Of a DNA stretch of 64,000 nucleotides, positions 24,206 to 49,173 are shown piece after piece. Positions within the stretch are counted from its first letter, which is position 1, and the number at the start of each line of letters is the position of its first letter. The notes beneath the pieces were generated by a model. That model was not told the DNA's origin, did not search any database, and was given only the letters and a program-made list of their open reading frames with translations. Made by a program: the position numbers and the translations under genes. Source of the DNA: Bryoerythrophyllum caledonicum (Eukaryota > Streptophyta > Bryopsida > Pottiales > Pottiaceae); contig OZ020517.1 in NCBI GenBank assembly GCA_963971425.1, positions 21,524,462 to 21,588,461 of the forward strand. Reading direction: 5' to 3'.

Positions 24206-24286
24206 GGTTTTTTAAGTTGTGACCTTTGAGTCAAGATGCTTCTTCTGAGAGGTCTGGGGATCTTTCTTCACCTTGGTAAATTGTTC

Positions 24287-25250
24287 CTAGTTTTTGCGGA
24301 CTATAGGTAAGATGTCACGGTTGTCCTCCACTCCAAATACCTTCCGAAAAGTCCTCGAAAGACTCCCTGCCTCCATAAGCTCCATCTCCATCTGTTGGAC
24401 ATCTCGGGTCACCTCCCAGGAGAACTTGACTATGTTCTCCACGAGAGTGAGACTCTTGGATGACCGGGATGGTGGTGGTGGTTTCTCCCGGTGAGACCGG
24501 GAGGTCCTTCCCTCACTCGAGATTGCTTGAGATAAAGAGGCTTCCCGTGGAATCACTGGTAACGCCAACCGGAGCTCCGTATGTTGGGGAAAAGCCCGGG
24601 GAGCATGATCTTGAGTAGCCATCCCTTGTCTCCACATCCTCTTCTCTTCCGGCTTCAGACAATGGTGATGCTCATATAAATGCATGAGATATGGAGTTAA
24701 GAAAGTCTTGGAGCATCCACCTTGTTGAATTGCCTGGAGTTGTGGCAAAATTGTCTCTTTCAACAAAGATCCCAAATTTGGGAAGGAATCCTCGAAAAAT
24801 GTCCGTATGTAGGTGGTGGCTAGCCGGGTTGTGACTCTTTCACGTCGGTTGGGGTGGAGGATTGAGTTGAGAAACTCAACCACCCTCCTCAACCGGTGGT
24901 TCGTGAATTGGTCACTTTGGTAGCACTCCGACACATCGTAAGAACTCGACACGTGCTCGTCTAGCAGCTCCCGGTTGACTCCGGATGTCCACCCCTCCTC
25001 TTGACAAAAAGAACACACCTCACGCCATACTTCTGTGGTCCATGACCGGAGATTAGCCTGGTAGATTCCCCGGGGCGTCCTGGGAGGTTGCAACTCTGCC
25101 ACCGCACGTCCCTTTTGGAAGATCCAAGGCTTCTCGTATAGTCCTCTGCAACCCATCTAGATGAGGTCATCCTCCAGTTGTTCACCTTTCGCAGTCCCCT
25201 CCCACTTGTTTGGGTCAACCTTCGAAAGCGTCAGTGATACCGGTAGAGCC
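24287..25250 (-). pseudogene. Unknown protein of element A (289-codon frame plus N-terminal piece)
   Basis: An upstream in-frame segment starting at ATG 25,250 (MALPVSLTLSKVDPNKWEG...) runs into a TAG at about 25,157. It continues as a 289-codon frame (25,156-24,287), then another TAG and about 24 more in-frame codons. The protein is charged and helical, with a Pro/Ser-rich stretch (REKPPPPSRSSKS) near residue 225. I recognise no domain. By position it could be a gag-like or cargo protein. Copy B carries the identical frame and the same stops, so the stops predate the duplication or were spread by gene conversion. Confidence 0.45.
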
Positions 25251-27517: not shown

Positions 27518-27521
27518 CTTC
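27518..27521. repeat. Target-site duplication CTTC, left
   Basis: CTTC immediately precedes the terminal inverted repeat at 27,522. The same four bases follow the right repeat at 45,349-45,352. Removing one CTTC together with the insertion keeps the Copia reading frame open across the junction. Confidence 0.8.
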
Positions 27522-27547
27522 ATGCCACATTTAACTAAATCTGGACT
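27522..27547 (+). repeat. Left terminal inverted repeat (26 bp)
   Basis: Begins ATGCCACATTTAACTAAATC and ends TGGACT. It matches the reverse complement of 45,323-45,348 without mismatch. Beyond 26 bp the two ends diverge, with only patches of similarity such as GGTCAAA. Confidence 0.9.
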
Positions 27548-27594
27548 ATTTGTGGATATCCGGACTTAGGGTCAAAAATCAATATGGACAGAAG

Positions 27595-27872
27595 ATCGTA
27601 GGATAGTACAATGTTAAACTATAAACAAAGAAATAGGACTACAAAAATATGCTTTTGCTATGAATTGCTCTTCATAATATATGAAATTGTGTCACAGTGT
27701 TCAAAATAGCATTAGACGACGTTGTATGATGTGGCAAACCAGAATACGTGGCATACATAGTAAGATCCTACGATACAAATCATGAAAGCACTTGGATTAG
27801 TAAACATATACGAATATGTGCTAAGAAGATTTGTGACATTCATAGAGGCTTATGACCGTAGGATCCTACGAT
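27595..27872. repeat. Left subterminal palindrome cluster
   Basis: Three variants of the 18-bp palindrome lie near 27,595 (right half decayed), 27,759-27,774 (left half decayed) and 27,855-27,872 (one mismatch). With the right-end cluster they place the motif near both termini, the usual place for transposase-binding subterminal repeats. Confidence 0.7.
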
Positions 27873-28030
27873 TGTTCAGGCTGCCAATCTATAGAAGAAC
27901 ATGATGGTCTGAATATAAATAGTAATAACCGTCCAGATAGTCAGGGACATGGAAGGCATAAACATGTGAATCACCATTTTTATTCACATAATAAATTGGG
28001 AACATACCACTGGCTTCAAAATTAATCACA

Positions 28031-28680
28031 TTATGGATTCTCATAAGCATGACCGTATAGAATACGGTCATAGTGCCAACCTTCGAACAGTCTACGAGGG
28101 AACTTTCCGTCCATCGGGTGCGCCCTGAGATACTGATTCACCGATGCGTAAGATCTCAGCGGGAGGATGAACGGAATCAGTGATGTCGTAATGTTTGGTA
28201 TAACACCGACTGCGTTGGGTAGAGTCATTTCTCCTCGCCAGGGCATCGGAAAGTAACAAGCAAAGTTTCCGCTGAAGACATGCCGCATTGGTTGGTCATC
28301 AACCATCATTACTTGACCAGGGAGGCAAATGTGCTTCGTCTTTTGGTCAGTTGATAATCTGAATATATTCTTGTCGCAGTATGGATACATCTCGGGCTTA
28401 GAACAGTGCTTTCGTCCATACAAAAAAAGAAGTCGTGACCTGATGCCTTCAGGTAGAAGAAAATTGAGAACCTTCTTCAAGCGGGGTAAATTCATAGACG
28501 ACCATATACCAACTTCAAAGTACCTAAGAAGTATTGTGAAGAACTCGAGCAGACCAGGCCGCACGATAACGTTCTCACGCTTGAAACGTCGTGGGGTGGC
28601 ATTATTGTACTGTTCGAAGCAAAGCAATCCGTTCACTGATAGAACGATTACTTTCCTTGAGGTCTCGGGGGGACGCTGTG
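28031..28680 (-). CDS. NIF/FCP1-like HAD phosphatase-like protein, first Asp replaced by Ser
   Basis: The frame ends at 28,031 and is open upstream to at least 28,680, past the non-ATG codon at 28,636, so the true start or splice site is unresolved. The sequence KVIVLSVNGLLCF occupies the place of motif I (family form LDxNG or DxDxT), but the nucleophilic aspartate is serine. Then come RPGLLEFFTILLRYFEVGIW and SSMNLPRLKKVL (motif II region) and MMVDDQPMRHVFSGNF (the DD of motif IV). NIF-domain proteins dephosphorylate Ser/Thr in RNA polymerase II tails or other partners. Without the nucleophile this copy is probably catalytically dead. It is a paralogue of the next gene upstream; a palindrome variant (28,743-28,760) lies between them. 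Confidence 0.65.
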
Positions 28681-28742
28681 CGCATACAGAACGAAAACAT
28701 TTGTAAGCAATATCAAAACCAACTGCTACAACGACCTGGATG

Positions 28743-28760
28743 ACCGCAGGATCCTACGAT
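28743..28760. repeat. Palindrome variant between the two HAD-like genes
   Basis: ACCGCAGGATCCTACGAT differs from the consensus only in the left arm. It lies about 100 bp upstream of the downstream HAD-like frame and downstream of the other HAD-like stop codon. Confidence 0.8.
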
Positions 28761-28896
28761 GTACAAGACAATGGAAATTGACACTGAGTAGATGATAGTG
28801 AAAAAATATTTATTTACAATGTACAAAAAGGTTTCTTACAAATTGTTGAGTCCAACAAAAACTCTAACTTCAAACACCACCCACATGAATGAGTGG

Positions 28897-29875
28897 TCAA
28901 ACAAATGTCTTCTTTCTCGAGTCCCATGACCGTGAACACCCTAATACTATATTTTGTGCTAATTTTGAAGTCCTAAAGATGGTAGAAGACGGACATCCGG
29001 GAAGGGGATTATTACGAACGTATTGAACCACAGAAAGGCCGAAATTAAACATCCTTCCTAACCAGGGAAGCATGATGTCAATGAGGAACTTGTCATTCAT
29101 GTCACCTGTCCATGGTACAGGGTGAACCGCACTGAACTCATCGTTCAAAAGGTTCTTCTCAGCGATGTCGTCGATGAGTAATGTCAAGTCCAGGTCCGCG
29201 TGATCAACTACAGTAGGGATCTTCTGAACGTCCTTAAGTAGGTAGGGCTTATCTCTATTCTCCTCTCTCGGGAAAGAGGATCTCGTTGTATGATCCTGTG
29301 TCATGATTACTATGCCCTCCATGATATCAGAATCGAGGACTTTCTCCAGCATCTTACGAACGTTTCTCTCGACGGCGCAGCTCCATACCACAACAGTAGC
29401 CAGATTATTCAGGGTGTTCAGAAACTGTGCACTACCGGGTCTAGGGATACTCTGTCTGTTATTATCCTTCCTGTGAACCTGAAATCCGTTCAAGTCCAAG
29501 ATGACGGTGTATCGAGGCAATCTCACCTTGTTGGTAAGAGGCAATGTCTTTACAATGTCCGCACCTACGTTCCCTGCAACAACCCGTCATTGCACGTAAG
29601 ACACTGGAATACACAGTACGTTTACAGAAGACATAGTGGTTAGGAACAAGGACGTTGCTGGGATAAATGATACTTGAGGATGGGAGGATCGTAGGATCCT
29701 ACGATGAGGATCCAAAGATCGTAAGCCCTACGATCAAGACCTGAGTTTTACATAAATTAGCGGAGGGAAGAGGTATACCTTGTGGTCCTTGGTCGTGACC
29801 GGAATTAGCTTCAGAGGAGCTCCGAGCCTCTTGGTCTTGGACGGAAGTCTGAGGGACGTCTCCAAACTTCTCCAT
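28897..29875 (-). CDS. NIF/FCP1-like HAD phosphatase-like protein (two exons)
   Basis: Exon 1 runs 29,875-29,779 and exon 2 runs 29,573-28,897. They join in frame to 257 codons plus stop across a 205-bp GT-AG intron (29,778-29,574). The first 45 residues are Ser/Gln/Glu-rich. Then YTVILDLNGFQV gives motif I with the nucleophile D59; the second Asp is Asn, as in many plant NIF-like proteins. RPGSAQFLNTL and VVWSCA (S about 97) give motif II, KPYLLKDV (K about 147) fits motif III, and TLLIDDIAEKN (D167-D168) is motif IV. It is therefore potentially active, unlike its neighbour. The intron contains one exact palindrome (29,688-29,705) and one variant (29,717-29,733). The start at 29,875 is the first ATG in frame. 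Confidence 0.72.
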
Positions 29876-29893
29876 TGTAGTCAATGTCGGAGT

Positions 29894-30493
29894 CTACTTC
29901 ACAGGGCTCAATGGCAGTATTTCGTGACTCGCCTCTTCAAACAAGCCAGCAAGAACCTCTTGCGCAATCGTCGAAGCAATAGTATCGACGGTCTCCATTG
30001 TGGGGACAACCGCAGCTAAGCTAGCTAATACATCCGCAGCAGATATAACGGCGCCACTGTCCAATGCCCAAGCCGCAAAGTCATCCACCAACGTCGAAGG
30101 CGCCAAAGAAGAGCGGGACTCAACAGCTGACATGGTCTGCTTCCCAGAACTAGGGAGAGAATCAGCACGGATCTCCTCTGGAATCCCTCGCCCGTCCATA
30201 AGACCTTCCTGATCTTTTATCTGAGCCTGACGCTGAAGAGGAGTCACCTCTCCGTCATCAGTACCGTGTGTTCTACTCCGAGAGACCTCCTCCCTGCGCA
30301 AACTCTCCACATTCCCCTGATTTACAACCTCAGTAGGAACCTCAAGGACACCTTGATCCTCGACATCGTAGGGTTCATTTACTGTTGGATCTGTACGAGG
30401 TAATACAACGCATGTGTCTCTCGCAGGCTGTGCGTCCAAGGGTAGATCCGGGTAGTCATTTGTCAGCTGCGTCCACGAAACAATGGAATACAA
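29894..30493 (-). CDS. Unknown Ala/Glu-rich protein of the large element
   Basis: This is an open frame of 199 codons whose first codon is not ATG. A plausible AG acceptor (GGACGCAG) lies at about 30,473, so it may be a 3' exon whose start lies upstream. The N-terminal two thirds are polar (Gln, Asp, Arg) and probably disordered. The last 70 residues (LVDDFAAWALDSGAVISAAD... onward) are Ala/Val-rich and helical. No known domain is seen. It stops 19 bases before the ATG of the adjacent HAD-like gene on the same strand. A palindrome variant (30,552-30,569) lies just upstream. Confidence 0.45.
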   Translation of the reverse strand: MYSIVSWTQLTNDYPDLPLDAQPARDTCVVLPRTDPTVNEPYDVEDQGVLEVPTEVVNQGNVESLRREEVSRSRTHGTDDGEVTPLQRQAQIKDQEGLMDGRGIPEEIRADSLPSSGKQTMSAVESRSSLAPSTLVDDFAAWALDSGAVISAADVLASLAAVVPTMETVDTIASTIAQEVLAGLFEEASHEILPLSPVK

Positions 30494-30551
30494 AGGATAT
30501 TAAACATCAAAGAGAATGGAAGGGTTCGCAGGTTCTTACAATCCGAAGACC

Positions 30552-30569
30552 CTCGTAGGATCCTACGAT
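30552..30569. repeat. Palindrome variant in an intergenic position
   Basis: CTCGTAGGATCCTACGAT, one mismatch from the consensus. It lies between the 3' end of the two-exon acidic/basic gene and the unknown frame at 30,493. Confidence 0.85.
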
Positions 30570-30775
30570 ACCTAGAGGAAAGTCCGATTACAATGTTGTG
30601 AAATTCTATAACACTCATTGTGGAAAATGAAGAACACTAGAAAATTATATTACGCATTGAATAACAGGTCACAAGCCCATGGTACAATTATTTACAAATC
30701 TGTCTGGTAACAAAAGTTCAAAAACGGCCAATCCAAAAATGTGCCTAGTAACAGAGTTCGGAGAAAGCTTCTAGG

Positions 30776-33057
30776 TCATACTTGGCTCGGGCCGAACAAA
30801 TCCTTCTTCGGCTTACTCGTCTGGGCATCCTTGACTGCTTGCTTAGCAGTGGCCTCCTGCTTCGCAGACTGATCTTCCTTGCTTGCTTGCTTGGGGACGG
30901 ACTCCGGCTTCCGCTTAGGAGGCCGAGCTTCCTTGGACACTTGCTTGGCAACGGACTCTGACTTCCGCTTAGGAGGCCGAGCTCCCTTGGACACTTCCTT
31001 GGCGGCGGACTCCTTCATCCCCTTTTCGATTTCAGCTTTCTTGCCTAATTGCTTGGACGCTTTCTTGCTTGTCGACCCAATCAGAGGCATGGCGCTCGCT
31101 TTCGAACGTTGGACCCGTTGCTTAGGCCTCGCGATACTCCTTGTCGCCCTAGGAGGAGGAACATCTTCCTCAAAAGGCATTTCCTGAGGAGGAAGAGCAT
31201 CTCCACTAGAATTCGCGTCCTCGTCCTCCGCCGCAGCGTCTTCCGTCCTCTGATGACCTCCCCCATCACCATCCCCTTCCTCCTCGTCGCCACTGCCATT
31301 GTCCTCGTCATCGTCGTCATCCGAGTCAGAGCTGTCAAGCTCCACAACTTCATCCTTCGTCATGTCATCGCTCGACGAATCCGGCTGCCTTTCCTTCCCC
31401 TTCTGTTGCTTCTTCCGTGATGTCGATGGTTCTTGCCCGGGTAGTGCCAGAGCCAACGCTCGACTGGTGTCGTAGATCTTGCTGGAAGTCTCCAGTGCTT
31501 TCTTCACCTCGCTCTTAGAGTGAACAACTTCCAAGACTTGTGCTCCTTTCGTCTGCAGAAGACATTGTTTAAGTATAAGGTACGAATGAGGCAGTGCACT
31601 GCAAAGACATGAAGTTCAATGATCGTAGGATCCTACGATAGACTTACCAGACGAATCCAGGTGATGCTTGGACCGCCGCCGACGTTGTTAAGTACGTATT
31701 TGGGGGCTCCCAATGTACCCAAAATCGAGGAGACCGCATCAAGATTGAAATTCGCATAAGTGGGCTGGTCCCACTGACGGGAAGCATTATGAAAGTCTGC
31801 TGCATTAACCACACTAGTAAACGGCATATCGTTGCCGAAGGCGTTGGTGAAGCAGGCTTTTAAATCATGTTTCGCCTCATTCCCGAACAAGAAGTTGAAA
31901 TATAGTCGACACGTAGCCTCCGGAGATGGCTGCTACGTGAAGCACTCGATGCCCGACGTCATATATAACGTCGAAAGGACGTGCCAAGGTCGTTGTTGCT
32001 TAATCACAGACCCTCTCTCGAATACGATATTCGCAACGTCCACCATGCCCTCCCGGTTGGTAATGAACACTCCCGGGTATTGGGCCCGTCTGAACTAGCT
32101 ACTATCTCTATACTCCATAGCCTGCATCGTTCGATTCAACTGCTCTGCACTGGAGTAGTCTGCAATACCTTTGTCCTTTCATTTGACAAAGCAGTACACA
32201 ATAACCACCAGTGAGTCGGCCTTCATCCAGGAGTTCATAGTGTCGCCTTCCAGATCAATAGTCTTCTTCAGGTTGCCCTTCGTCCTGTTCATGTAGAACA
32301 CCTTGTACTGATTCTCGAAGTTCGTCGCGGAAGATGAGCCAAGTTCCAAATCATGCGCGCTACCCTCCGAGACCGTCTTCTGGTGCTTGAATAGCGTGTC
32401 CAGGATTTCGATCCAATCTTCGTCCTTAGAAGATGCGTTCAGTTGCTCGCGACAGAGAAAGAACTTCTCGCCGCCAGGATCCTTGTTCACCATGTGAAAC
32501 CACGTCTCCACAACGTCGTCCATAATCTTGTATTCTGCTGCTCCTTCATCCCACTCGGCCTCAGTGTAGGGGAGTCCCTTTAGCTTCTTAGATCTCAGCG
32601 GCGCATTACACATGACATGCATGAATTCGTTCTTTAGAATTCTCTTCCTCTTCTGTTGCTTACACGTAGATTCAAGAGAAGTCACCGTGGCAGGAATCTT
32701 CGACGCCTTCGTCGATTTCACGGAGATTTCCTTGTCGATGACCTTCCTTGCGATGACCCTCTTGTCACTGTCCCAGAGAAAGTACAAGGGTTGTAAATCA
32801 TTCAGCATTAATGATCTGGAGGTCATTTGACGTTGCTTCACTCGTTCGTGCTGCGATGTCCCGGCATTATCTTGCTCCATGTCTTCGTCTTCAAGACCGA
32901 CCAAGCTTGACGTCCTATTCCATGGATCAGGGAGCAATCCGCTCATCCAACGCTGCTCAATCGTCTCCCACATGACGAAGATATCCTCTGGAACGAAGAG
33001 TAGAGGGTATTTAGGAATACCCGTCGCCGCGTCATCCTTCGCCTTCTTCCCGGGCAT
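30776..33057 (-). pseudogene. Large unknown protein with acidic and KxARPPKRK repeats; three in-frame stops
   Basis: Exon 1 (33,057-31,648, 470 codons) and exon 2 (31,552-30,776, 259 codons with stop) join in phase across a 95-bp GTAAGT...CTGCAG intron. Exon 1 starts MPGKKAKDD and stays in one frame, but is interrupted by TGA at 32,179-32,181, TAG at 32,095-32,097 and TAG at 31,933-31,935. Each is one C-to-T change from CGA or CAG. Exon 2 has a very acidic run (SSDSDDDDDEDNGSGDEEE) followed by lysine-rich imperfect repeats around ARPPKRKSES and KQVSKEARPP, like a chromatin-associated tail. No enzyme motif is recognised. An exact palindrome sits in the intron (31,622-31,639), 7 bases inside the donor. 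It lies downstream of the ParB-like gene on the same strand and in the same frame register. Confidence 0.55.
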
Positions 33058-33115
33058 GATTGTCGAGAGTTTTGACTGAAATAACTGTACAAAAAGTGCC
33101 AACAATGTTAACTTC

Positions 33116-33180
33116 ATCGTAGGATCCTACGAGACAGTCACACAGTAAAAGAACTAACTACTATCGTAGGATCCTATGAT
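33116..33180. repeat. Two palindrome variants, 47 bp apart
   Basis: Variants at 33,116-33,133 and 33,163-33,180, each with one or two mismatches near the end. They lie between the ParB-like frame and the ATG at 33,057. A possible acceptor (TTTTTGTACAG) follows, so they may be intronic or intergenic. Confidence 0.8.
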
Positions 33181-34599
33181 ACTGCATAATGGTGAATGCG
33201 GAAGGAATAGAATACTCATAGCAAAGTTTGCGTGCTCCGGCTGCCCTTTCTTTGCTTTCTCTGGACATCCCAATTCATACCAAGTCTTTCGAGCAATCTT
33301 GTAGCACGGAATGTAATTGCTCTCTGCCCTGGATCCAGCAAGGTCTTGGTTAAGTACTCTGGAGTACAGCTGCATCATCTCTCACTTCTTTTGAGGATCC
33401 TCCCAGAGAATTGTTACTTGGAATTTTGTCGCATCCTCCTTCGCCTCGTCACTCAATCTCCCTTCACCGATCAGGATCCTGTGCGCAGCAACACTATGTT
33501 GCCCTCCAACGATGACATAGTGCGTGTCATTCGTGATGTCAGCCCAGGTCGGCTTGTGCTCGAAATACCTGTACGTGTTATGAGGAATGTCCTCGTAATC
33601 TTCATCCCTCACACGGTATTGGCCCATCACCGGCATGACGTAGATATGCTGTAGCGCAAGCTCGAAGGGGTTTGTTCTTAGCTGTTGAAGGAGCTCTAGG
33701 ACCCGAACCCTTATGAGGGATCGATAAACGACAGTCCCAGGCGGTGCGCGATGGAGGCGGTCGATGTCAACAAAAAGGTCCTCCTTCGACGATCCCGAAA
33801 TCTTGGTTGGCTTTGTCCCGAAGACGTGCAGGTCACGAAAATTTGCCTCGTATAGTTGCTTCACTTTCAGGATAGACTCCGGGCTTGCCGAGTACACCTT
33901 CTTGCTCGTTAATGCAACGGCTTCCTCCAATGTCATCTGGTCCTCCTTGTTACCTCGAGTTTTCTTCGTCTTCTTCCGTGTATCTGTCTTCGCCAACGCG
34001 GAACTGCTCCTCTTCTTCTTCTCCGATGGAGAAGGCGCTACCGGCTTCACCAAGTCTCTGTTGTAGCGGTCCCGGTGACTCTTCAGCTCCATCCAGCCGC
34101 GGACAATTCTGTCTGGCTTCATGTTATGCGAAAGAACCGTCATGCCGTAGTCTTTGATAGATTCGTTCAGTTTCGCGGCTAACGACTCCGTCTTCACAAT
34201 CAATGCATACACCCACTTACAGCCAACACTAAGAACGTCTTCCTCGATCACTACGATCATCATGTTCGCACCAGCGAGCGCAATGTCGAGAACCTCCAGG
34301 TTCTTTGTTGAACACGTGAACAACTCCCCTGCAATGGCTGTTGGATTCGTCAGGCACATTATGGGCGCAACCAGGGCTTCCTTCGACAGCGCGATAGTCC
34401 ATTGTAGACCCCATTCGATGACGTTCTCCGCCAGATAGTATTGCAATACCTGGGCGTGTGTATGGAGAGGTCGATTCACCTCACAAATTGCAAGGGAAAC
34501 GCAGTTGATCAGGTTAACTGGACGCCAGTCCTCATCGACTTCATCCACCTCCTTAAAATTTTCCCTACACAGTGAAAGACGAAGAATAAGGTATTGCAA
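33154..34599 (-). pseudogene. Protein with a ParB/sulfiredoxin-like motif; one in-frame stop
   Basis: An open frame of 405 codons runs 34,599-33,385 and is closed by TGA (33,382-33,384). The same frame stays open for another 76 codons to 33,154, so the stop looks secondary (CGA to TGA). The first codon is not ATG; the real start is probably upstream. Residues 25-180 are a globular region without a match I know. Residues 194-216 are Lys/Ser-rich. Residues 272-376 recall the ParB N-terminal fold: DLFVDIDRLHRAPPGTVVYR, then a helix, then YVIVGGQHSVAAHRIL, comparable to the Y-x-I-x-(D/G)-G-x-H-R-x-x-A box. ParB folds bind or cut DNA or bind nucleotides. The canonical Arg after His is Ser here, so the assignment is tentative. 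Confidence 0.45.
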
Positions 34600-34652
34600 C
34601 AGACTGCCTCCTTACCAGTGCGCGGTTTAATGACTTAGATCCAGGTCCAGAG

Positions 34653-35520
34653 ATCGTAGGATCCTACAATGGCAATGGGCACTGAGATCCGGGACTAGAG
34701 ATCTTAGCATCCTACAATATCAAAAGGCACAATGAAACCTTGCACATTTCTGATCACCCTGCTATAAAAATCATTTGTGATGAAGGTGTCAATGTAGGAT
34801 CCTACGATGGATTATTCAGTTTGCACAGGGACATAACGTAGGATCCGACGATGGCGTGGCCAGCCACACCATCGTAGGATCCTACGATAGCAAACGACCA
34901 TATCATCCCATGATACCAGAAATAACAACGTCTTCCGGCTGCTAACGTGGGATCCTACGATATGAACTTGCAAATAGATTGTGAGTGATGACGCGCGAAG
35001 ATTGACCTTTTTGGCTGATATCGTAGGATCCTACGATATGAACTTGCAAACAGAGCATGATTGGAAAATGAACTAAACTACTTCGGACCCAGTAACCTTA
35101 ACATACCCTAAACCTAGCTGACCTTTCTGGCTGATATCGTAGGATCCTACGATATGAACTTGCAAAGAGAGCAGGTTTGTTATATGTAATATACAACTTT
35201 GGTGATATTTACCTCAAATACCCAGAAACCTGACTAACCATTTGGTTGATACCGTACGATCCTACGATATGAACTTGCAAAGTGCAATGGATTGTAATAT
35301 AAACTTGCGAGTTTTGGACGATATTAACCTTAGCAACCCACAAATCTAATTGACCTCTCCAGTGCTAATATTGTAGGATCCTACGATATAAACTTGCAAT
35401 ACAAATAGGACTGTAATATAAACTTCAGAACATCGGGTGATATTAACCTTAAAACTCCATAAACTTGACTGACGTTAGCAAGAACCCTATAGCAAACTGA
35501 TTCCCGTACGATATATCAAG
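34653..35520. repeat. Dense palindrome array, partly as 116-bp tandem repeats
   Basis: Ten copies or variants of the palindrome begin at 34,653, 34,701, 34,791, 34,835, 34,871, 34,944, 35,020, 35,136, 35,251 and 35,370, with a decayed half near 35,505. From 34,944 onward each is followed by ATGAACTTGCAAA or a variant, and from 35,020 onward each belongs to a repeat with spacings of 116, 115 and 119 bp. The array contains no coding frame. It lies upstream of the ParB-like gene and may be a long 5' intron or promoter: a GTGAGT donor lies at about 35,632 after an ATG at about 35,667 on the minus strand. Confidence 0.85.
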
Positions 35521-36460
35521 CGAACAACATCGATTTGGTTTCTAATATTGTATATGAACAAAATCTTCTTGATTGTATAACGTGACTACAAGCCATACAT
35601 ACATACAAAATCAATGGATTCATGGTACTCACGTGAAATTCCACTCGGGATCGTCCGTGCCGGCCATGATCGTTGTGATCCTCTGCTCACAATCTGCAGC
35701 AATTCACTTGGAGATTGGACTGCACTTGCTCCCTCAGCTTCCCAGCTCCAATCGTTGTTGGTTAAAGATACACGCGTCCGCTCGTCTTCTGAGGTAGGAG
35801 TCACGTCCACCTGACCTCGCTTAAACACACAAACTCACCTAACAGTCACCTAAAACACTCATAAACAAAAATCACCTAAAATCCTCACAATAGAAGACAC
35901 CTACAGTTACTCACGCTCACTCCAATCACACAACCAGCACACAAACGCGCCTAAAACACCAACAAACGTATGTCGCCTGAAACCCTCACACATGAACACA
36001 CAATGCAGAGCAACACAATGAACACGAACTCACATAAACAATGCGACCTCAGACAAACTCTCCCTGGCGCTCACGCTCACTCACATGAACAAACCTCACG
36101 ACTACACCTCACACCACACGAACACACCTCACCGCACAAACAGACCTTCGTAGAAGAAGCGCAAAAAAAAACTAGTCTAGAACAATTTCAAGAGTAGAAA
36201 AGTTGTGCGAAAGAGAGTGAGGGAGGTGAGAGCGTGGGAGGAGAGAGAATACAAGTACGAAATGATGGAAAAAACCAGCGCGCCTCCACAATGGCGGAGG
36301 TGCGTGACGAAATGATTCCTGTACTTAATACTGAACGCGACGTCTTGAGCTCGGTCTCGATCGTAGGATTTCTCGACTCGGGTGGCATGATAAATTTCAG
36401 CCCTTCATTAAGTACGTCATTAATTAATACGTATAATACTAGTGTTACTCACAAATAATT
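35521..36460. other. Left-arm leader: possible first exon and ACA-rich DNA
   Basis: On the minus strand ATGGCCGGCACGGACGAT (from about 35,667) followed by a strong GTGAGT donor could be the first coding exon of a left-arm gene. This cannot be proven from sequence. From 35,825 to 36,150 the plus strand is rich in ACA, CACC and CTCACA phrases. A half palindrome (ATCGTAGGAT) lies at 36,360. No other feature. Confidence 0.35.
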
Positions 36461-39400
36461 CAAGTAACATCTCACTTCACACTTTAATGTATACCTTCTA
36501 CTTTTTATCATCCACTTTTTACCTTCTACTTTTCACTTTAACTTTTTAACTTCTACAAAATTTCTACTTTAAACTTTTTAATTTCTACTTTTAAAAATTT
36601 TACCACCTACTTTTTACCTTCTATTTTTCACTTCAACATTTTAACTTCTAGGTCATTTCTACTTTTTACTTTTTACCTTCTACTTCTTACCTTTACTTTA
36701 ACTTTTTAACTTCTACCTAATTTCTACTTTTTACATATTAATTTCTACTTTGAACTTTTTAACTTCTACTTTTAACTCTTTACCTTCTAATTTTTACTTT
36801 CTACTTTTAACTTTGACTTTTTAGCTTCTAGTTAATTTATACTTTTTACTTTTTACCTTCTACTTTAACTTTAAAATTTCTACTTTCAATTTTTAGTTTT
36901 ACCTTTTTAAGTTCAACTTTTAACTCTTAAACTTTTAACTACTACTCATGACTTCTACTTTTAACTTCAACTTTTTAATCTAATTTTAAAGTTTAACTTT
37001 CAACTATAACTTTTTGACTTGTAATTCTAACTTGTACTTGACACTTTTAATTTTGTTCATGTTACATATTTATATACAACATACGATAATATCTCCATAC
37101 GATTCATATCTGCTTTTACAACATATAATGATACAGACATACATTTATACATATATACAGCATTCAATAATTAGTAATTACATATCAATACATTTCATAT
37201 AATTATCTATATATCCAACATACAACTATACATACACAGGTGTTACATATTTATATACAACATACGATTATATCTCCATACGATTCATATCTGTTTACAC
37301 AACATACAATGATATAGACATACATTTTATACATATATACAACATACAATAATTACATATCAAACATTATATATAATTATTTATATATCAAACATACAAC
37401 TATACATACATACACAGATGTTACATAATTATATACAACATACGATTATATCTCCATACGATTCATATCTGTTTATCCAACATACAACTATACATACACA
37501 GATGGTACATATTAATATACAACATACAATTATATCTCCATACGATTTATATCTATTTATACAACATCCAATGATACAGACATACATTTTATACATATAT
37601 ACAGCATACAATAATTACATATCAATACATTATATATAATTATTTATATATCAAACATACAACTATACATACATACACAGATGTTACATATTTATATACA
37701 GCATACAGTTATATCTCCATACGATGTATATCTATTTATACAACATACAATGATACATACATAACTTTTGTAGATATGTTCTGCAAGCAAAAATTATATA
37801 TCAATACATTTTACTTAGTTATTTATATATCCAACATGCAACTATACATACACAAATGTTAAATATTTAAATTCAACATACAATTATATGTCCATACGAT
37901 ATGTATCTATTTAAACAACATACAATTATACATGCATACATTTTGTACATATATACAACATACAACTATGCATGCATACATTTTGTACATATACACAACA
38001 TACAATAAATATATATGGATACATGATTCTATAAATATATATATATCCAACATACAACTATACATACACAAATGTTAAATATTTAAATTCAACATACAAT
38101 TATATGTCCATACGATTAATATTTATTTAAACAACATACAATTATACATGCATACATTTTGTACATATATACAACATACAATTCTACATGCATACATTTT
38201 GTACATATACACAACATACAATAGATATATATGGATACATGATTCTATAAAAATATATATATCCAACATACAACTATACATACACAGATGGTACATATTA
38301 ATATACAACATACAATTATATCACCATACGATTTATATCTATTTAGACAACATACAATGATACAGACATACATTTTATACATATATACAGCATACAATAA
38401 TTACATATCAATACATTTTATATAATTATTTATATATCCAACATACAACTATACATACACATATGTTACATATTTATATATTATATACGATTATATCTCC
38501 ATATTACGATTTATATCCATTTATACAGCATACAATGATGCATACATAACTTTTGTACATATATTCTGCAAGCAAAAATGATATATCAATACATTTTACT
38601 TTGTTATTTATATATCCAACATGCAACTATACATACACAGATGTTAATTACATAAATACAACATACAGTTGTATGTCCATACGATTTATAACTATTTATA
38701 CAATATACAATTATACTTGCATACATTTTAGACATATATATAGCATACAATAATTTTATATCGATACATGATTCTATAAATAAATATATATATATATATA
38801 TATCCAACATACAACTATACATACACAGATGGTACATATTTATATAGAACCTACGATTATATCTTCATACGATTTATATCTATTTAAATAACATCCAATG
38901 ATACAGACATACATTTTAAACATATATACATCATACAATAATTACATATCAATACATTTTATATAATTATTTGTATATCCAATATACAACTATGCATACA
39001 CAAATGTTATATATATATACAACATACAATTACATCTCCATACGATTCATATGTATTTATTCAACATACAATGATACATACATACATTTTGTACATATTT
39101 GCACCATACAATAATTATAGATCGATACGTTATATATTTATATATAAATATATTTTTAATATTTATATATATGCAACATGCAACTATTCATTTATTCATT
39201 CTATTTTATATAGGTATGTATATATATACATACATTATATACATTTTTACATACATTCATCATATATACGTACATACAAATAGACAATATATTTCCAATT
39301 TTCACCTTCTACTTTTTACCTTCTTCTTTTACCTCTAACTTTTTAACTTTGAGTTAATTTCTAGTTTTAATTTTTTTAATTTGTGCTTTTTACCTTCTCC

Positions 39401-39620
39401 TTTTAACTTTAGCTTTTTCAACTTCTTGTTAAATTCTACTTATAACTTTTAGTTTCTAATTTTAACTTTTTAATTTATGCTCTTATCTTTTGAATTTCTA
39501 CTTTTAACTTTTTAATTTCTACTTTTAATTTATATTTTTAACTTTTCAATTTCTACTTTTAACTATTTAACTTTTAACTATTACTTATGACTTCTACTTT
39601 TATATATACATATATGTCAG
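36461..39620. repeat. Central AT-rich spacer: CTTTTTAACTTC tracts flanking an ATACA repeat core
   Basis: The outer parts (36,461-37,060 and 39,290-39,620) are pyrimidine-rich on the plus strand, built from CTACTTTTTAACTTC-like phrases. The core (37,061-39,290) is made of diverged repeats. These contain CAACATACAATTATATCTCC, ATACGATTTATATCTATTTA and ACATACATTTTGTACATATA phrases, with higher-order spacing of roughly 180-250 bp. Short frames here are repeat artefacts. It separates minus-strand genes on the left from the plus-strand gene on the right. Confidence 0.85.
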
Positions 39621-41016
39621 ACAATAATATATGCATAAAACAATATGTACTAGGCAATTTTTATATATATACAACATACAATTATATATACATACGTTTT
39701 ATTACATTAATTATGTAAATTACATAAATTAGACATTTACGTTAAATACAAAATTTAATACGTACTTATATACGTACAATTATGTATGTAATACATAACT
39801 ATTTACAGACAATTTATATATTATATCACATTGAATATATTATCATAGATTATGTAAATCACATAAATTAGACAAAGTCATTTACCATAAACCCTATATC
39901 CTAAACCTATGTGCAACCCCTAACCTATACCCTAAACCTATAACTTAATTTTTCTCTATATGTTTAAATTTCTCAAAGAATAGTACCCTGATCCTAAATT
40001 ACGGATGTTTGGGATTAAACTAAACCATGATTCTATACCTGAATCCTAAACTCTATTCCCTGAACGTGAACCCTAGACGGAAACCCTGGACGTAAACCTT
40101 GAATGCAAACCCTGGACGAAAGCCGTGGACGAAAGCCATGTACCCGACGGCATGCCTAAACGCAATCATTACTCGTAGTTGGATGTTACACATAGTACAA
40201 GTGGATGATCATGATTGTTCATCGTCGGCATTGTAAACAATATTCTATATAGTAATTGATTATGTTATTTGATATTCCAATAATCACGTATTCCACTCTC
40301 TGTAATGATTGAAGTCCCGTGCCCCCGATGGAGGGAAAAAACTTCTTGATTCCAAGGCTTGCTCAAGCGCCTGACTTCCTACTCCCTCTTCCTTCCTGAC
40401 CTCATTTCCTCTTTAGTTGAATACCTCTAAATGTTGATTCGGAGGTTTGTGTCGTCACACGTTTGCATCGCATTCCATCATCGCAGTCAAGGACGTCAGC
40501 AGGCTGTCAATGGAGCCGGTATTATCAACTTTCCTCGCTGTTGTACCGGGTGTCGATTCTGGATTTACTGTAGTTTCTGCTGAATTGTCTACTCCCCTTC
40601 GTCCCTAACCATATTTCCGCCTTAACTAAACACCTCCTTGGTCATTAGGTTTCGGAGGCTTCTATCGCAGTTTAGGAGTTGAGCCTATGGCGTGGAGCGC
40701 GTGGAGTTGACCGATTGGCGATTCCAGCATTGCATTGAAGGTCATCAACGTGGGAAAGGGTGCCAATCTTGTCATCTGTTCGCTTGCAGCTGTAGGTGCT
40801 GCTTCTACTTTTGATCCGTTTCCTGTTGTTTTATGGAATTGAGGCGATTCTTCAATTCGTATGGTCATTGTTTTAGTATTTGTCATTGTGTGAGGGGTGG
40901 ATCTTCCCTTTACTGCTCTTACGATATCAATTCACCGATGTATGTGTGTACGGACGACTCTATCTTCTGAATGTGTACGGACAAATCTACATTTCTACGG
41001 ACGGACTTCTTCAGTT
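39621..41016. other. Non-coding DNA with degenerate AAACCCTGGACG phrases
   Basis: Between 39,880 and 40,140 there are loosely repeated CCCTAAACC- and AACCCTGGACGAAAG-like phrases. They are not regular enough for a telomere array. From 40,300 to 41,016 sequence complexity is normal, but no long open frame with recognisable motifs is present. It may be 5' regulatory DNA of the transposase-like gene. Confidence 0.4.
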
Positions 41017-41284
41017 ATCGTAGGATCCTACGATAAATATCACAACGTCTTTCAGCACATCCGCACGGGATATCGTAGGATCCTACGATAGAGATCGCGG
41101 AGTAATTCACTAACTTTCCAATGTAGATCGTAGGATCCTACGATAAGACAACATTGTATGCTATGTACTCAGGACACCTGCATCGATTTCATCACACACA
41201 TTACGTACTGATTTTGTGTGGGTAGTACATATCAAGTATCTGGACGTATTGCAAGCGGGCCATACCATCGTAGGATCCTACGAT
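41017..41284 (+). promoter_or_regulatory. Four exact palindromes in front of the transposase-like gene
   Basis: Exact ATCGTAGGATCCTACGAT copies lie at 41,017, 41,072, 41,127 and 41,267. The first three are spaced exactly 55 bp apart. The last ends three bases before the ATG at 41,288. Regular spacing and location just upstream of the gene suggest a binding array for autoregulation. This is inference; no promoter element was otherwise identified. Confidence 0.65.
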
Positions 41285-41287
41285 ATC

Positions 41288-44200
41288 ATGGATGAATCGT
41301 TCTCTTCTAGTCCCGAGACTACAAACCCTGAAGATGGCGAGGCGGACGGACCTGCACGTTTCGAACCGGGTGAGTCCGTATTTCTTTCCTATGCTGGTCA
41401 AGGTGTGGTTGGAGAAGCCATGATCATCGAAGCGGTTGTCTCTGGGACATGGCTGGGCGTTGATACGGATCAAACCTTTGGCGACTTCAGTCTCGTAAGG
41501 CCGACCGTCATATATCCTGTGGCTCGAAGTCTTCTCCTTCTGCCGATGCAAGATGGCCTTCCTGTCTTAGCTGATTCGCTTGGTAGAACGATCTTGTGGA
41601 TGTCTCGAAACCTTGTTCTCACTTCCGACATACGTGCCGACTCTGGTGGTCGAGACGGTATCCCATTTCTACCTCGCATGGTATGGAAAGGAAAAATTGT
41701 GGCACGCTTCAATGGCAGTGGTGATCTATTGTCATCTGGTCGCATTAATTGCGTCGGTCCTGAGGAACCGTTTGAGCACGGCACATTGGGCGAGGGTTAC
41801 ATTGGAGTCACGGTGTTTGATGTTTTTATAGGAGATCCAAGTGATATTATGAGTCACCGACGTTGGCCATTTGGAGAGTGTTCGTTCGAGGGTGGACATA
41901 GTCTACGCGATACTATTGCCCATTTCGACCGAATTCCAGAGGTTGGAGACCCGAATGCGCACCTGGGCGGCCGCAAGAAATCACCATACCGTTTCGTTGC
42001 CCGCAGGAAGCGTACTCATGAGAAGCTCAACGCTTTTGCTAAAAAGATGCTCCCGGAAGTAATTCAGGCTATCAGTTCGCATTCCTGCTATCCAGACGAG
42101 TGCGTTTGAGTATTCAAACCCCAGGATACCCTATACATTCGGACGAAATTTTGGCTGAAGAATTTTGACGATCGTCGGGATTATGCCAGATCTGTTGGTG
42201 GTCAACTGCGCTTTGTGGGTAATAATCGGAAACGAAAGTTTGTTACATTATGTGGGTAGGACGTCTGCGCTACCGCTTGGTATAAGATTCATGGCATCCC
42301 GAAGTCAACGTTCCATGAGTATATGAACCAATACGAGAAGGGAGTTGTGTCCTCGACGCACGGTAACAAGGACATTAAACGTCCACGACTTGGAACCATG
42401 CAAGCCCTCGGTAGTATTACGGCCATAGTTGATGAATGTGCTGATCAAATGCCAAATCAGATAAGGTCAACAACACCAGGGCGGATGGACACCTTGAAGT
42501 TCCTGCCCTCTGGTCAGAAGTGGAAGATGATTCAAGCTGCAGCCACGGAGGTAATAATTAGTTCGCCATTCATTGTATATAAGATTATGGGATGTTTGTG
42601 TGGTCTTGTATCGTGGGATCCTACGATCATTTCTTTACATAATGGTCCTTACTGGATCACATGCTCTTTTTGTTTCTCATAACTTTGATTTGACAAAATT
42701 GCAAACTAATCTCGAGTACGGGTTACCGCCCGTATCCCAATCGGCCGTTAGTAGAATGAAGAGGGAGCACTTTAAGAATGTTGTACTTAAACCGGTTGGG
42801 AGTTCTTTCGCAAAATGCACCCTCTGTGACACTCTACAACAATACATCGGGAGGTTGGTTAAGGGATCACCTGAATATAATTCGTTTGTGAAACAAAAAT
42901 TGGCTCACTGTAACCTCCAAGCATCGTGTAGGCGTGTGTACCATACTTGGCGGGAGGAGTCTAAGATGAGCAAGGGTAGAATCCTGTGTATAATCCACGA
43001 TAAAATGGATACAACGAAGACCGCTATTCCTCGTATGCGAATTAATACCAAACTCACTTCCCCTCTTGGTCAGTTCCCAGTTAACATCACCGGTATGGTG
43101 ACGCACGGACACGGAGATGGTGCCTACGCCCACTATTCCTCCGACCTTTGGCCGGGGGACTCTAATTATACTATTTCCTCCCTTTCAAGATTGCTCCGGC
43201 GTTTGCAGGAACCACCTATGCGTGAAACTGGTAGAATGTTTCCTTACACACCTGCCAATTTTTTATTTGAAGCAATGCTAAGAGGGAAGTCCAGATGCTT
43301 GAACCTGTTGCCGGCGGTGTTGAATACTTCTGCAAACCCCATTCCCCTACCCGAAAAGTTGTACCTGCAGTTGGACAACTCTGCCAAGGACAATAAGATT
43401 CAATTCCTCATGGCATTTTTATCTATGCTAACTCATCGGGGTGTGTTCAAGGAAATCCAAGTTGGATTCTTATTAGTGGGGCACACCCATGAGGATATTG
43501 ACGCTTACTTTAGCTACTTGTCGAAGACGTTGAAGGGTCAAAATACTTATGTTGTCGCGGATTTGATGATGGCCTTCATGAAATTGCAGGACATGAGTTT
43601 CATGCCTGAGTTTGTGCAAGAGGTAGCAGATTTAAAATCTTTTGTTAAAGGTTATATCCGTGATGGTTTTGATAGGATTACGGGCCTCGGAGAGATGCAC
43701 CTCTTCGAATTCTACGTTGACAAAGAAGGGTGGCCAGTCATGCAATTTAAGGAATTGGCGGTTGATTCATACTGGTTGCCTAAAGACAAGCCAGATATTC
43801 GTCTTTGGAAGCACGACGTAGATGGGAATCCCATGATACCTACCGGTATGCCCAATCCGGTTCCTTTCAGGCACTTGTGGGGCGATATAACTGTCTCTAC
43901 CACCGGCAACCAAGACAAGGCTAGAGCGAAGGCTTCGAAGGCGGTTGAGAAGAGGTCGTTCATCAAGTCAGGAATTCAAGGTTATATTAAGTTTTGGCAG
44001 GAGGGAATGCTCAATTGTACTAGCTGGGCAAGGGATTTTCCTCCATACATTGAGTACTGGAGTGCAATACTTGGAGACTGGAAAAACCTCTGTCTTCTAT
44101 TCCTGCGGCATTGGTAGAAGGTTTTTGGCCAAGTCAAGTTTCGAGAGCTACTGATCCAGATCCGCTATGCCTTATCACAAGTCCGGATGACCTACCTGAA

Positions 44201-44626
44201 GATGACTTTCCTGAACCGTATTGCGGCCCCATGAAGGAGAGACCAAAGGACCCCTTGAATCCATGGCGACATATCGTACCGGAGTCATGGGTGTATATTC
44301 GTCCGAGCGATCCCCATATATATCCCGTCTGGATGGGGAGAGCTTGCTCAGCAGTGAACTGCGAAAGAGGACATGCGGAGTTTGGAATGTTCATTGTCCA
44401 ATTCTGGGAGCCAAGAAATGCATTCAAGAACTCAAAGAAGAAGTATGAGAACTGTTGGGAAGACACCTGGATTCCCGAACGTCAACGACATGTACAAACG
44501 CATGTCAACTCAGTTGTGTTTGCATCCTCGTCGGGAAGAACGAATCCCCAGATTCGATCTATTCCAAGGAGGGACCGATTAGCAGCGTTGGCTAACTTGG
44601 AAGCAGCAAACGCAGCGGATCCTTGA
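41288..44626 (+). pseudogene. DUF7869-like protein, candidate transposase of the 17.8-kb element
   Basis: Exon 1 (41,288-42,550, 421 codons) and exon 2 (from 42,717) join in phase across a 166-bp GT-AG intron that holds a palindrome variant (42,610-42,627). The first 100 residues (LLLLPMQDGLPVLADSLGRTILW) recall a domain of plant CACTA-type proteins. Then come TLCG...DVCATAWYKIHGIPKST and a Cys-rich FAKCTLCDTLQ. The core has IIHDKMDTTKTAIPR (Asp 42,999), LYLQLDNSAKDNK (Asp 43,374) and VGHTHEDIDAYFSYLSKTL (Glu 43,491). These match the DUF7869 pattern from memory, and the spaced acidic residues suggest an RNase-H-fold DDE enzyme. Defects: TGA at 42,107, TAG at 42,257 and a frameshift near 44,085, after which the C-terminal part (to 44,626) continues in another frame. 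Confidence 0.68.
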
Positions 44627-44713
44627 TGCAAAGGCGATCTTGCAACCAGGATTGGAAGACAACCCAACGATTATTTTTTATTGGTCATCATCTCCTAGAA
44701 CTAGTCAACCCAC

Positions 44714-45253
44714 ATTGTAGGATCCTACGATCTTGTTCCTTCAAAGCTACCAAGGCTACACTTTCACAACATTCGACAGTTTTGATCCCACTGGCCTGCT
44801 TACTCCGATCCTACGGCTGAAGTACTCTTTAACAGGTCATCCACGCAGATCGTAGGATCCTACGATATTGTTTCTCCTTAGCTGCAGATCGTGGTTTTTG
44901 ACATCTGCCGCCACTATGTACCCATGTTTTGGCTTTGCCATTGAACTTATGAAATGTGTACTCGTTTTTGAGTAACTTTATTTACCCCCTACACTACTTC
45001 TATCCTACTTTACACAATCCAACCGATTCAAGCTCTTTAATCATACGTTTCGTACTTACTTGCTTCTTGTTTTCCCTTTATTGCTATTAGACCGAGGAGG
45101 TAGGATTCTAAAGGGTCTTGCAGGGATGAATGGGATCGTAGGATCCTACTATCTCCACATCTGGGACTCTTCTCACATTAAGTATGGTCTACAACTCGCT
45201 GAGTCCTTTGATATATCATGCACAAGTTGTATTTTTCGTAGGATCCTTCGAAG
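44714..45253. repeat. Right subterminal palindrome cluster
   Basis: Copies start at 44,714 (one mismatch), 44,849 (exact), 45,135 (one mismatch) and 45,236 (decayed ends). A partial CCGATCCTACGG lies near 44,807. They lie between the end of the transposase-like gene and the right terminal repeat. No gene is seen in 44,627-45,322. Confidence 0.8.
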
Positions 45254-45306
45254 CACGTCATTGCATATTTTATTGGATATTCTTCTAACAAATCGGAACT
45301 TTGACC

Positions 45307-45332
45307 AATCTGGACTTTTAAAAGTCCAGATT
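45307..45332. repeat. 26-bp perfect palindrome overlapping the right terminal repeat
   Basis: AATCTGGACTTTT followed by its exact reverse complement is centred at 45,319/45,320. Its right half overlaps the inner part of the right inverted repeat. The left end of the element lacks this foldback. It could form a hairpin at the right terminus. Confidence 0.85.
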
Positions 45333-45348
45333 TAGTTAAATGTGGCAT
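45323..45348 (-). repeat. Right terminal inverted repeat (26 bp)
   Basis: Exact reverse complement of 27,522-27,547. It is followed by CTTC (45,349-45,352), the right copy of the target-site duplication, and then by Copia sequence. Confidence 0.9.
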
Positions 45349-45352
45349 CTTC

Positions 45353-46567
45353 CTCAAATATTGGTGGTTCGGGCGTAGGAGGTAGAGATTCTGGTCATGC
45401 AACTAGAGGGATTAGAAGGATTGGAGAGAAAAGTCGGTTCTGGGAATAAGTTGTCAGAGAATGGATTAGAAGGAGAACTGATTATGGAAGAGCTAAAGTC
45501 GTATCCAATCCAAGTTTTGTCAAAGACCACGTCTCTACTCCAGTGAATTTTCCTCGTTTGTGGCTCAAATAGTCTATATCCCTTGCATTCTGCGTCATAC
45601 TCTACAAAGATGCACTGAATGGTTTTACCATCAAGTTTGGCTCTTTTGTTGTCATGGATGTGAACATATGCTAAGTGTTGGACAAAAGGTTTAGCTTTGT
45701 AGTATTTTTTTTCCGGGGTCATACCCTGGTTTGCTCGTGTAGGACTATTGTTGAGTAAGGAATTGGCCGTGTTGATTGCTTTTGTCTATAAAAATCTGGG
45801 ACGTTGACTTGCATGTACCATATATCTTGCTTTCTCAGGAGTAGTGCGATTACGTCTTTCACTGACGCCATTTTGTTGAGGAATTAGTGCTATTGTAAGT
45901 TGGCGCTGAATTCCATGGATGAGGAGTTATGAATCAAACTCATGGAAAAGGTACTCTCCACCTCGATCAAATCTCAATGTCAAAATATGTTTCCCGGTTT
46001 CTTTTTCCACTCGTGCCTTGAATTCTAGGAATTTCTGGAAGGTTTTAGTCTTAGGTCTTATAAAGTAGACAAAACTCTTCCTATAGTAGACGTCGGTGAA
46101 GGCTACAAAATACTGTGATCCAATGAGTGATGGTGTGCAACTAGGTCCTACAACATCAGAGTGGACAAGTTGAAGTATTAGGTTTGAGTGGTGGAGAGAA
46201 AATTTAGGAAAATGCTTCCGATGTTGTCTGCCCGCCATACAATCACCACAAACGCTCCAAATAGTTGGAAATGTAGGTAAGCCTTGGACTTGTTGTGCAT
46301 TTGCACAATGTTAAAGACTCGGGTAATTGTGATGTCTTAATCTTATATGCCATAAGTTCATAGTTGACTCGGAGACCACCGAATTCACCATGACTTCAAT
46401 TTTCTTTTTGGTGAATTGATAAAGTCCGTTTGTCATATTCCGATGACCAATGGCTATAATAGATTTATCTTGGGAAGATAAAGACATTGATTATCCATAA
46501 AGACAATGGTGTGTCCTTGGTCAACTAAAGAACCCACAGATAATACGTTGCGTTAAAAAGCTTTTAG
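45353..46567 (-). pseudogene. Copia integrase and protease-end region
   Basis: Read on the minus strand from 46,567. A NVLSVGSLVDQGHTIVFMDN segment (about 46,556-46,495) and LWHIRLRHHNYPSL (about 46,350) represent the protease-integrase junction and the GAG-pre-integrase zinc-binding region. Then LVHSDVVGPSC, YFVAFTDVYYRKSFVYF and LRFDRGGEYL (46,238-45,927) are the integrase core with its aspartates. KPFVQHLAYVHIHDNKRAKL and CIFVEYDAECKGYRL (45,722-45,354) form the C-terminal integrase. Frameshifts near 45,930 and 46,240 inactivate it. The frame enters the 17.8-kb insertion at 45,352 and resumes at 27,517. Confidence 0.88.
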
Positions 46568-49092: not shown

Positions 49093-49173
49093 GAACAATT
49101 TACCAAGGTGAAGAAAGATCCCCAGACCTCTCAGAAGAAGCATCTTGACTCAAAGGTCACAACTTAAAAAACC

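Follow-up and report, generated by a model that had tools for sequence, protein, structure and literature searches.

To our knowledge, self-recognition of transposon copies by a factor of their own is known in plants chiefly from VANC/VANDAL and TNPA/Spm. VANC proteins, which carry DUF1985 and DUF287 domains (PMC5735166), oppose the silencing of VANDAL elements in Arabidopsis (Hosaka et al. 2017, PMC5735166; Sasaki et al. 2023, PMC10398659), and passages of these two papers give the VANC21 motif as the 9-mer YAGTATTAY, arrayed in one orientation. Here, we describe a 17,827-bp DNA transposon of Bryoerythrophyllum caledonicum that encodes a DUF7869 protein and carries 28 copies of a palindromic motif. 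It lies in a stretch of 64,000 nucleotides (assembly GCA_963971425.1, contig OZ020517.1, positions 21,524,462 to 21,588,461), hereafter referred to as the window, and belongs to subfamily A of a group with further subfamilies (B, C, D, and E) in the same genome. This apparently unrelated transposon group would follow the same logic as VANC/VANDAL with a longer symmetric site, in four or five versions within one genome.

Related DUF7869 elements of one genome have differing palindromes at shared slots, which is new; a literature search for the term "DUF7869" gave no match, and no description of such elements was found, judging by titles and abstract openings. We suggest that the palindromes are probably recognized by a dimeric DNA-binding factor that the element itself encodes and that is specific to the subfamily, a VANC-like logic in an unrelated transposon. 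Each subfamily, with its own version of the site, would also have its own version of the factor. Bound near the element ends, between genes, in introns and upstream of both divergent gene sets, this factor would mark no copies but those of its own subfamily and would regulate their expression; its most likely effect, by analogy with VANC on VANDAL in Arabidopsis, would be to oppose silencing.

The likeness to VANC/VANDAL, as passages of PMC5735166 and PMC10398659 describe that system, concerns three features: short, dense, often tandem non-coding motifs in introns and upstream of the transposase gene; a family-specific motif that differs between related families (here, those of A and B overlap); and an encoded factor more variable than the transposase (here, a left-hand gene that is our candidate). 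In contrast to the one-orientation arrays of the VANC21 9-mer in these passages, the motif described here is a 20-bp palindrome with many single, dispersed sites, in an element with a DUF7869 transposase and a 4-bp target duplication.

A palindrome family confined to one transposon of the window

The 18-bp palindrome ATCGTAGGATCCTACGAT occurs 28 times in the window with ≤3 mismatches (10 exact copies, 9 with one mismatch, 6 with two and 3 with three), whereas 100 dinucleotide shuffles gave 0.03 on average. No copy at this threshold lies in the window outside positions 27,595–45,252, and the half-site ATCGTAGGA was found 36 times inside the element and not at all in the rest of the window. The original prediction, made from the letters of the window, had listed ten exact and about 18 near copies, too many for chance, and had noticed none in the other 46 kb. 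Every coordinate of the exact copies was correct, 18 near copies were counted, and the string IVGSYD, which it had read on either strand, is a direct consequence of the 18-mer sequence. All copies lie inside one element, as it had proposed, but this element (27,522–45,348) is slightly wider than the span it gave. The element is inserted in a Copia-like element, the flanks of which, after removal of one CTTC copy, restore a frame that is continuous across the junction. This Copia-like element, the genes nearby, and relatives in Riccia point to a plant genome. Target duplications of 4 bp (CTTC, TTAC, AAGG, and ACTG) flank the four A copies of which both ends were read.

In the whole genome (437 Mb searched), the 18-mer gave 1838 matches with ≤2 mismatches, versus 6 for a reversed-pattern control. 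It is thus frequent beyond the window, an outcome that the original prediction had regarded as damaging if it lay outside this element family, yet the matches listed are clustered. They included 68 places with an exact 18-mer, all on one contig (C1), 63 of them within 20 kb of another listed one; of the five isolated places, one was about 0.5 kb from an exact match to the terminal repeat. Ten cluster regions, picked because they held 18-mer clusters, were fetched, and all ten aligned to the window element with 91–95% identity over 4.4–13.3 kb. The 18-mer is therefore likely to be restricted genome-wide to this element family. The terminal repeat was found 345 times in forward and 342 times in reverse orientation (≤3 mismatches; control, 0), and 90 DUF7869 matches, scored out of 4153 candidates, ranged in identity from 100% down to 68%. 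The in-frame stops of these scored copies seem, by eye, to be mostly TAG, a pattern compatible with the loss of CAG codons through C-to-T change where the DNA is methylated. Contig C1 makes up 15% of the genome and holds 49 of the 90 scored matches (binomial P 4e-18); it is perhaps repeat-rich or a sex chromosome.

A collection of prokaryotic contigs (genome_contigs) contained no exact 18-mer. A viral collection gave a single exact match, which we took as chance; it lies in a ribonucleotide reductase gene, on a phage-like contig without another copy. No DUF7869 relatives were confirmed in viral contigs.

Each subfamily carries its own palindrome

Nine long copies were compared: three of subfamily A (the window copy, A_25.14 and A_22.59), two of B, one of C, one of E, and two of D. 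Their DUF7869 sequences showed identities to A of 78% (B), about 71% (C and E) and about 68–69% (D). The tree covers eight copies, and the branching of C, E, and D in it is weakly supported. Ten further A regions were fetched, of which A_25.14 and A_22.59 entered the slot and nearest-motif tables; the other eight were used for the CpG, conservation, and strand-bias comparisons, and one of these, A_38.69, also for protein identity.

The half-site consensus was GATCGTAGGA in A, GATCGTARGA in B, GATMGRAAGA in C, GACCGGAGGA in E, and GATCGGGWGC in D. In a motif-free search, the top palindromic 20-mer (≤4 mismatches) had 21–40 matches in eight of the nine copies, compared with 2–3 in three shuffles of each copy and 2 in two flanks of the window. 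In the ninth copy, D_28.77, AT-rich repeat words led (24 matches) and the D motif ranked fifth, with 18. Motifs first found elsewhere recurred in A_25.14, A_22.59, B_28.57, D_28.77, L044, and L045. When sites (≤3 mismatches) were assigned to the nearest motif, the three A copies had A sites only (20, 20, and 16), the C copy 21 C sites only, the E copy 19 E sites only, and the D copies 26 and 12 D sites only. The two B copies were mixed, with 9 and 7 A-like sites, 7 and 7 B sites, and 12 and 12 tied. Four 1.3-kb pieces (L042–L045), placed by motif together with DUF7869 identity to the window (69–72%) rather than by tree, were attributed to E (two pieces, weakly, with 4–5 matches versus a shuffle maximum of 2), C (one) and D (one).

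Compared with A, the terminal repeat has a single changed base in 25 in each of B, C, and D, whereas half-sites differ between subfamilies at up to 4 of 10 positions; no terminal repeat was found in the E copy with the pattern used. If the element made use of a host transcription factor, sites for it would be expected in the promoter-proximal and intronic positions observed, but a single host factor does not explain a site sequence that varies by subfamily in one genome, and this origin appears highly improbable.

Conserved slots outside coding sequence

Only one of 245 sites (≤4 mismatches, nine copies) was located in homologous coding sequence, which accounts for 19–51% of the stretches; the open reading frames (ORFs) of the window were trimmed by hand for this count. 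With untrimmed ORFs, a cruder count for the window gave 3 of 28 sites, or 3 of 14 clusters, as coding (P 0.0008). The slots common to the subfamilies are upstream of genes, in introns and at 3' ends. The transposase intron and the 3' end each contained a site in all nine copies, as did the ORF7–ORF6 interval in all eight copies in which both exons were matched. One B copy has an intron in this interval, bounded by ordinary splice ends and containing two sites, and the ORF5–ORF4 intron of the same copy has a site right after the 5' splice site, matching the window. D_35.29 lacks a site in the ORF5–ORF4 gap.

Since the slots are largely kept while the site sequence differs by subfamily, many dispersed sites must have changed together. 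This raises the question of how twenty or more sites per element, many of them outside tandem arrays, change in concert. We would give an even chance to the more specific idea that each subfamily has a private 20-bp palindromic address, rewritten at all slots when the factor changes. Such a self-versus-other code would let related elements of one genome ignore each other, within a group of large DUF7869 elements characterized by a 4-bp duplication.

The identical core and unrelated flanks of the sites might also suggest tiny mobile or self-spreading palindromes, in which the 18-mer itself has been copied to many places. Flank matches were slightly above chance at 2 bp (6 of 28 sites, 1.75 expected), 3 bp (2 of 28, 0.44 expected) and 4 bp (1 of 28, 0.11 expected). 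However, 22 of the 28 sites lacked even a 2-bp flank match, and the sites avoid coding sequence and keep homologous slots despite their change in sequence, so that independent mobility is very improbable.

Symmetry of the site and the candidate binding protein

The changes between subfamilies are symmetric right up to the two central base pairs, which read GATC in the consensus of A, B, C, and E and GCGC in D, with a TATA centre in five C sites. Pairing does not explain the symmetry of the innermost pairs, since the loop of a hairpin could not pair. Symmetric change at every depth fits a DNA palindrome that would be read by a dimer. The element-encoded dimeric protein of the original prediction gains from these symmetric, subfamily-specific variants at shared slots, but neither of the binders that it had suggested, a ParB-like and a DUF7869-like protein, found support.

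The DUF7869 protein, with its predicted DDE/RNase-H-like fold, looks like the transposase of the element. Binding of the palindromes by the transposase is unlikely, because the terminal repeats hardly vary between subfamilies and the palindromes vary more. Our leading candidate for the binder is the left gene (ORF7-ORF6-ORF5-ORF4). Identity to A in B, C, and D was 78, 71, and 68% for DUF7869, 45, 38, and 32% for ORF7, and 44, 37, and 33% for ORF6; across B, C, E, and D, it was 68–78% for DUF7869, 48–63% for R1, 32–45% for ORF7, and 33–46% for ORF6. Among the genes matched in these subfamilies, the left gene is the fastest diverging, as would be expected of a diversifying specificity factor. 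Matched evolution of factor and site is directly testable, as the sites of each subfamily can be set against its proteins.

ParB-parS offers another precedent, in which a dimer binds several dispersed palindromes. Replication or partition sites of this kind (iteron- or parS-like), serving a DNA-binding maintenance protein of the element, would be in keeping with palindromes that are both dispersed and clustered around an AT-rich centre and with the ParB-like motif that the original prediction had seen in ORF7. However, no ParB or replication protein was matched in Pfam or among solved structures by the proteins searched, the site sequence varies by subfamily, and the element is an integrated chromosomal transposon with terminal repeats and a target duplication; we consider such a role improbable. 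ORF7 was rejected as a ParB-like protein: the ORF7 sequences of A, B, and E matched neither ParB in Pfam nor any solved structure at E ≤1, and no homolog of ORF7 was found in the protein databases searched. A single-sequence model was too poor to use, with a pLDDT of 35. The comparison of R1 with the Riccia protein P0089 (also with PF26133) gave no significant similarity.

Evidence against protein recognition and the RNA alternative

Several results weigh against recognition by a subfamily-specific factor. The B and A motifs overlap, and four clearly separate motifs can be counted, not five; C and E are each represented by a single long copy and some short pieces, of which the two from E are poor in sites. 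D_28.77, of which 16 kb were read, has 19 D sites and no match to the left gene, and the proteins of this gene match no DNA-binding family above threshold in Pfam, solved structures, or protein databases. In favour of recognition, shared (older) non-CpG differences among the A copies amounted to 5/374 in palindromes versus 84/1531 in flanks (P 0.0002) and private non-CpG differences to 45/2839 versus 245/10429 (P 0.014), but the sites had been picked by consensus match in the window copy, which biases these comparisons towards conservation. Private rates including CpG-type positions were nearly equal (0.0258 in sites, 0.0268 in flanks). CpG decay was no lower at the sites or close to them (0.168 and 0.209) than at a distance (0.183) or in coding sequence (0.175), leaving no trace of lasting local methylation protection. 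Finally, among the half-site mismatches read in the outward sense strand, G.U is commoner than A.C (100 versus 43; 162 sites with ≤5 mismatches in five copies), a bias that plain binding to DNA would not lead one to expect.

Plain conservation within the family (2.8 versus 6.3%) was set aside, because the sites had been selected for consensus match in the window.

The excess of G.U was observed in 21 of 36 slots, with the reverse in 5 and ties in 10 (one-sided slot sign-flip P 0.00025), and in nine of ten family-sides, the exception being the right side of E. A mutational strand bias was rejected as its cause, since transitions in the A copies showed no comparable bias (0.0322 versus 0.0285 per base in non-coding and 0.0320 versus 0.0350 in coding sequence). 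This excess, together with the location of several sites in introns and 3' regions, is consistent with the RNA hairpin signal that the original prediction had named as an alternative, that is, stem-loops in outward transcripts that would serve RNA processing or export or help to evade small-RNA silencing. However, the four central bases, which would form the loop, show about the same conservation as the stem (half-site values of 95 and 98% for A and of 94 and 100% for B, with less in C), and all consensus sequences are self-complementary there. G.U is also outnumbered by the non-pairing mismatches that are not A.C (155), no Rfam family was matched, and the dense arrays are found ahead of the first exons, in DNA that may not be transcribed. 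A hairpin signal is thus unlikely to explain the palindromes. If they are recognized by a dimeric factor, the G.U bias suggests that the same sites may be read in RNA as well.

Relationship to known transposon groups

VANA of VANDAL elements is a Mutator-like transposase, and CACTA elements have terminal repeats beginning with CACTA and a 3-bp target duplication. The only Pfam match of the transposase ORF is DUF7869; neither a Mutator-like (MULE) nor a tnp2-type transposase domain was matched by this ORF. The Pfam scan at E ≤1, which covered 10 element ORFs of the window and 9 proteins from other copies, gave no match to the VANC domains DUF1985 and DUF287. By transposase, domains, ends, and duplication length, the element belongs to neither VANDAL nor CACTA. 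Tc1/mariner elements duplicate TA at the target, unlike the 4 bp found here. With the DDE transposases of this group (Mos1 and Metnase), the DUF7869 protein is predicted to share a DDE/RNase-H-like fold and catalytic core, but identity in the structural alignment is about 10–13% and the element is much larger, with several genes. Its 26-bp terminal inverted repeats and fixed 4-bp duplication are those of a DDE/RNase-H transposon.

The resemblance to CACTA Spm/En elements with TNPA lies in a second protein that would be encoded by the element and in family-specific repeated sites near its ends; in passages of PMC2613891, CACTA subterminal repeats are bound by a fast-varying second protein, the sites of a soybean element can form palindromes, and element size is similar. 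The palindromes might therefore be TNPA-like cofactor sites, at which a protein joins the ends for excision and does not control expression. Palindromes are indeed found less than 100 bp from either end (73 bp on the left, 96 bp on the right). However, most are internal (upstream arrays, introns, and intergenic gaps), extending through much of the non-coding DNA and not only the ends as in the CACTA elements of these passages, and the copies closest to the two ends belong to the most degenerate ones, with three mismatches each. The element also differs in its ATGCC ends and 4-bp duplication (four subfamily-A copies with both ends read). A role confined to transposition is quite unlikely.

Features of the element and its surroundings

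The features of the element are listed in Table 1. The usual motif of NIF-like (CTD-phosphatase-like) domains is DxD; NIF2 of A and B reads DLN at this position, and catalysis may be altered. NIF2 relatives are present in the B and E copies, and the C copy has a short piece. The DUF7869 exon is a single ORF of 729 aa in copy B.

Table 1. Coordinates of the transposon, its genes, and its palindromes in the window
Feature	Position	Strand	Remarks
Whole element, DNA transposon	27522..45348		26-bp identical terminal inverted repeats, 4-bp target duplication, DUF7869 gene
Target-site duplication CTTC, left	27518..27521	+	Element ends
Target-site duplication CTTC, right	45349..45352	+	Element ends
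Left terminal inverted repeat ATGCCACATTTAACTAAATCTGGACT	27522..27547	+	26 bp
Right terminal inverted repeat	45323..45348	-	Identical to left one in reverse complement
NIF1, NLI-interacting-factor-like phosphatase domain	28031..28706	-	PF03031, E 7.3e-9
NIF2, NLI-interacting-factor-like phosphatase domain	28897..29570	-	PF03031, E 4.6e-13
ORF3	29894..30493	-	Matches in A copies only, among copies read
Left gene, ORF7-ORF6-ORF5-ORF4 exons	30776..34611	-	Joined by analogy with copy B; in-frame stops here; no known family or recognizable domain; fast evolving; candidate binder
ORF7 exon	33382..34611	-	
ORF6 exon	32179..33060	-	
ORF5 exon	about 31647..31936	-	
ORF4 exon	30776..31552	-	
AT-rich central tandem-repeat region	36093..39602		Genes diverge from here
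Transposase gene, first exon (R1 plus R2N)	41288..42548	+	Interrupted by stops here; a single open frame in copy B
Transposase gene, DUF7869 exon	42702..44626	+	Frame change between overlapping ORFs near 44.08 kb
Palindrome, 3 mismatches	27595..27612		Left end of element; 73 bp from left terminus
Palindrome, 2 mismatches	27757..27774		Left end of element
Palindrome, 1 mismatch	27855..27872		Left end of element
Palindrome, 2 mismatches	28743..28760		Between NIF1 and NIF2 ORFs
Palindrome, exact	29688..29705		Between NIF2 and ORF3
Palindrome, 1 mismatch	30552..30569		Between ORF3 and ORF4
Palindrome, exact	31622..31639		Putative ORF5-ORF4 intron (from sequence), right after 5' splice site; B copy likewise
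Palindrome, 1 mismatch	33116..33133		ORF7-ORF6 interval, intron by analogy with copy B
Palindrome, 1 mismatch	33163..33180		ORF7-ORF6 interval
Array, 10 palindromes	34653..35387		Upstream of ORF7; partly 48-bp and about 116-bp tandem units; starts at 34653, 34701, 34791, 34835, 34871, 34944, 35020, 35136, 35251, 35370
Three exact palindromes, 55-bp spacing	41017..41144		Upstream of R1; starts at 41017, 41072, 41127
Palindrome, exact	41267..41284		Directly upstream of R1 ATG
Palindrome, 1 mismatch	42610..42627		Transposase-gene intron, predicted from homologs
Palindrome, 1 mismatch	44714..44731		3' of transposase gene
Palindrome, exact	44849..44866		3' of transposase gene
Palindrome, 1 mismatch	45135..45152		Right end of element
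Palindrome, 3 mismatches	45235..45252		Right end of element; 96 bp from right terminus

A perfect 26-bp palindrome, AATCTGGACTTTTAAAAGTCCAGATT, at 45307–45332 overlaps the right terminal repeat, and most of it was found again at one end of the A copies L010, L013, and L016. Within the central region, positions 36490–39600 consist of AT-rich tandem arrays with periods of 7, 14, 42, and about 180 bp and a strong strand skew. The C and D copies share words of the 42-bp unit, which are absent from the tested B and E copies; copy B has a different central repeat.

The element is flanked by a 3.7-kb inverted pair (22297–26040 and 47339–51082) with 8 differences in 3744 bp, at the ends of which no simple target duplication was seen. 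Shorter inverted stretches, 75–87% identical, are located just inside this pair (26443–26707 and 46567–46826). Positions 125–8640 of the window hold a LINE-like element on the minus strand, with a strong strand skew and ORFs that by eye are endonuclease-, reverse transcriptase-, and RNase-H-like.

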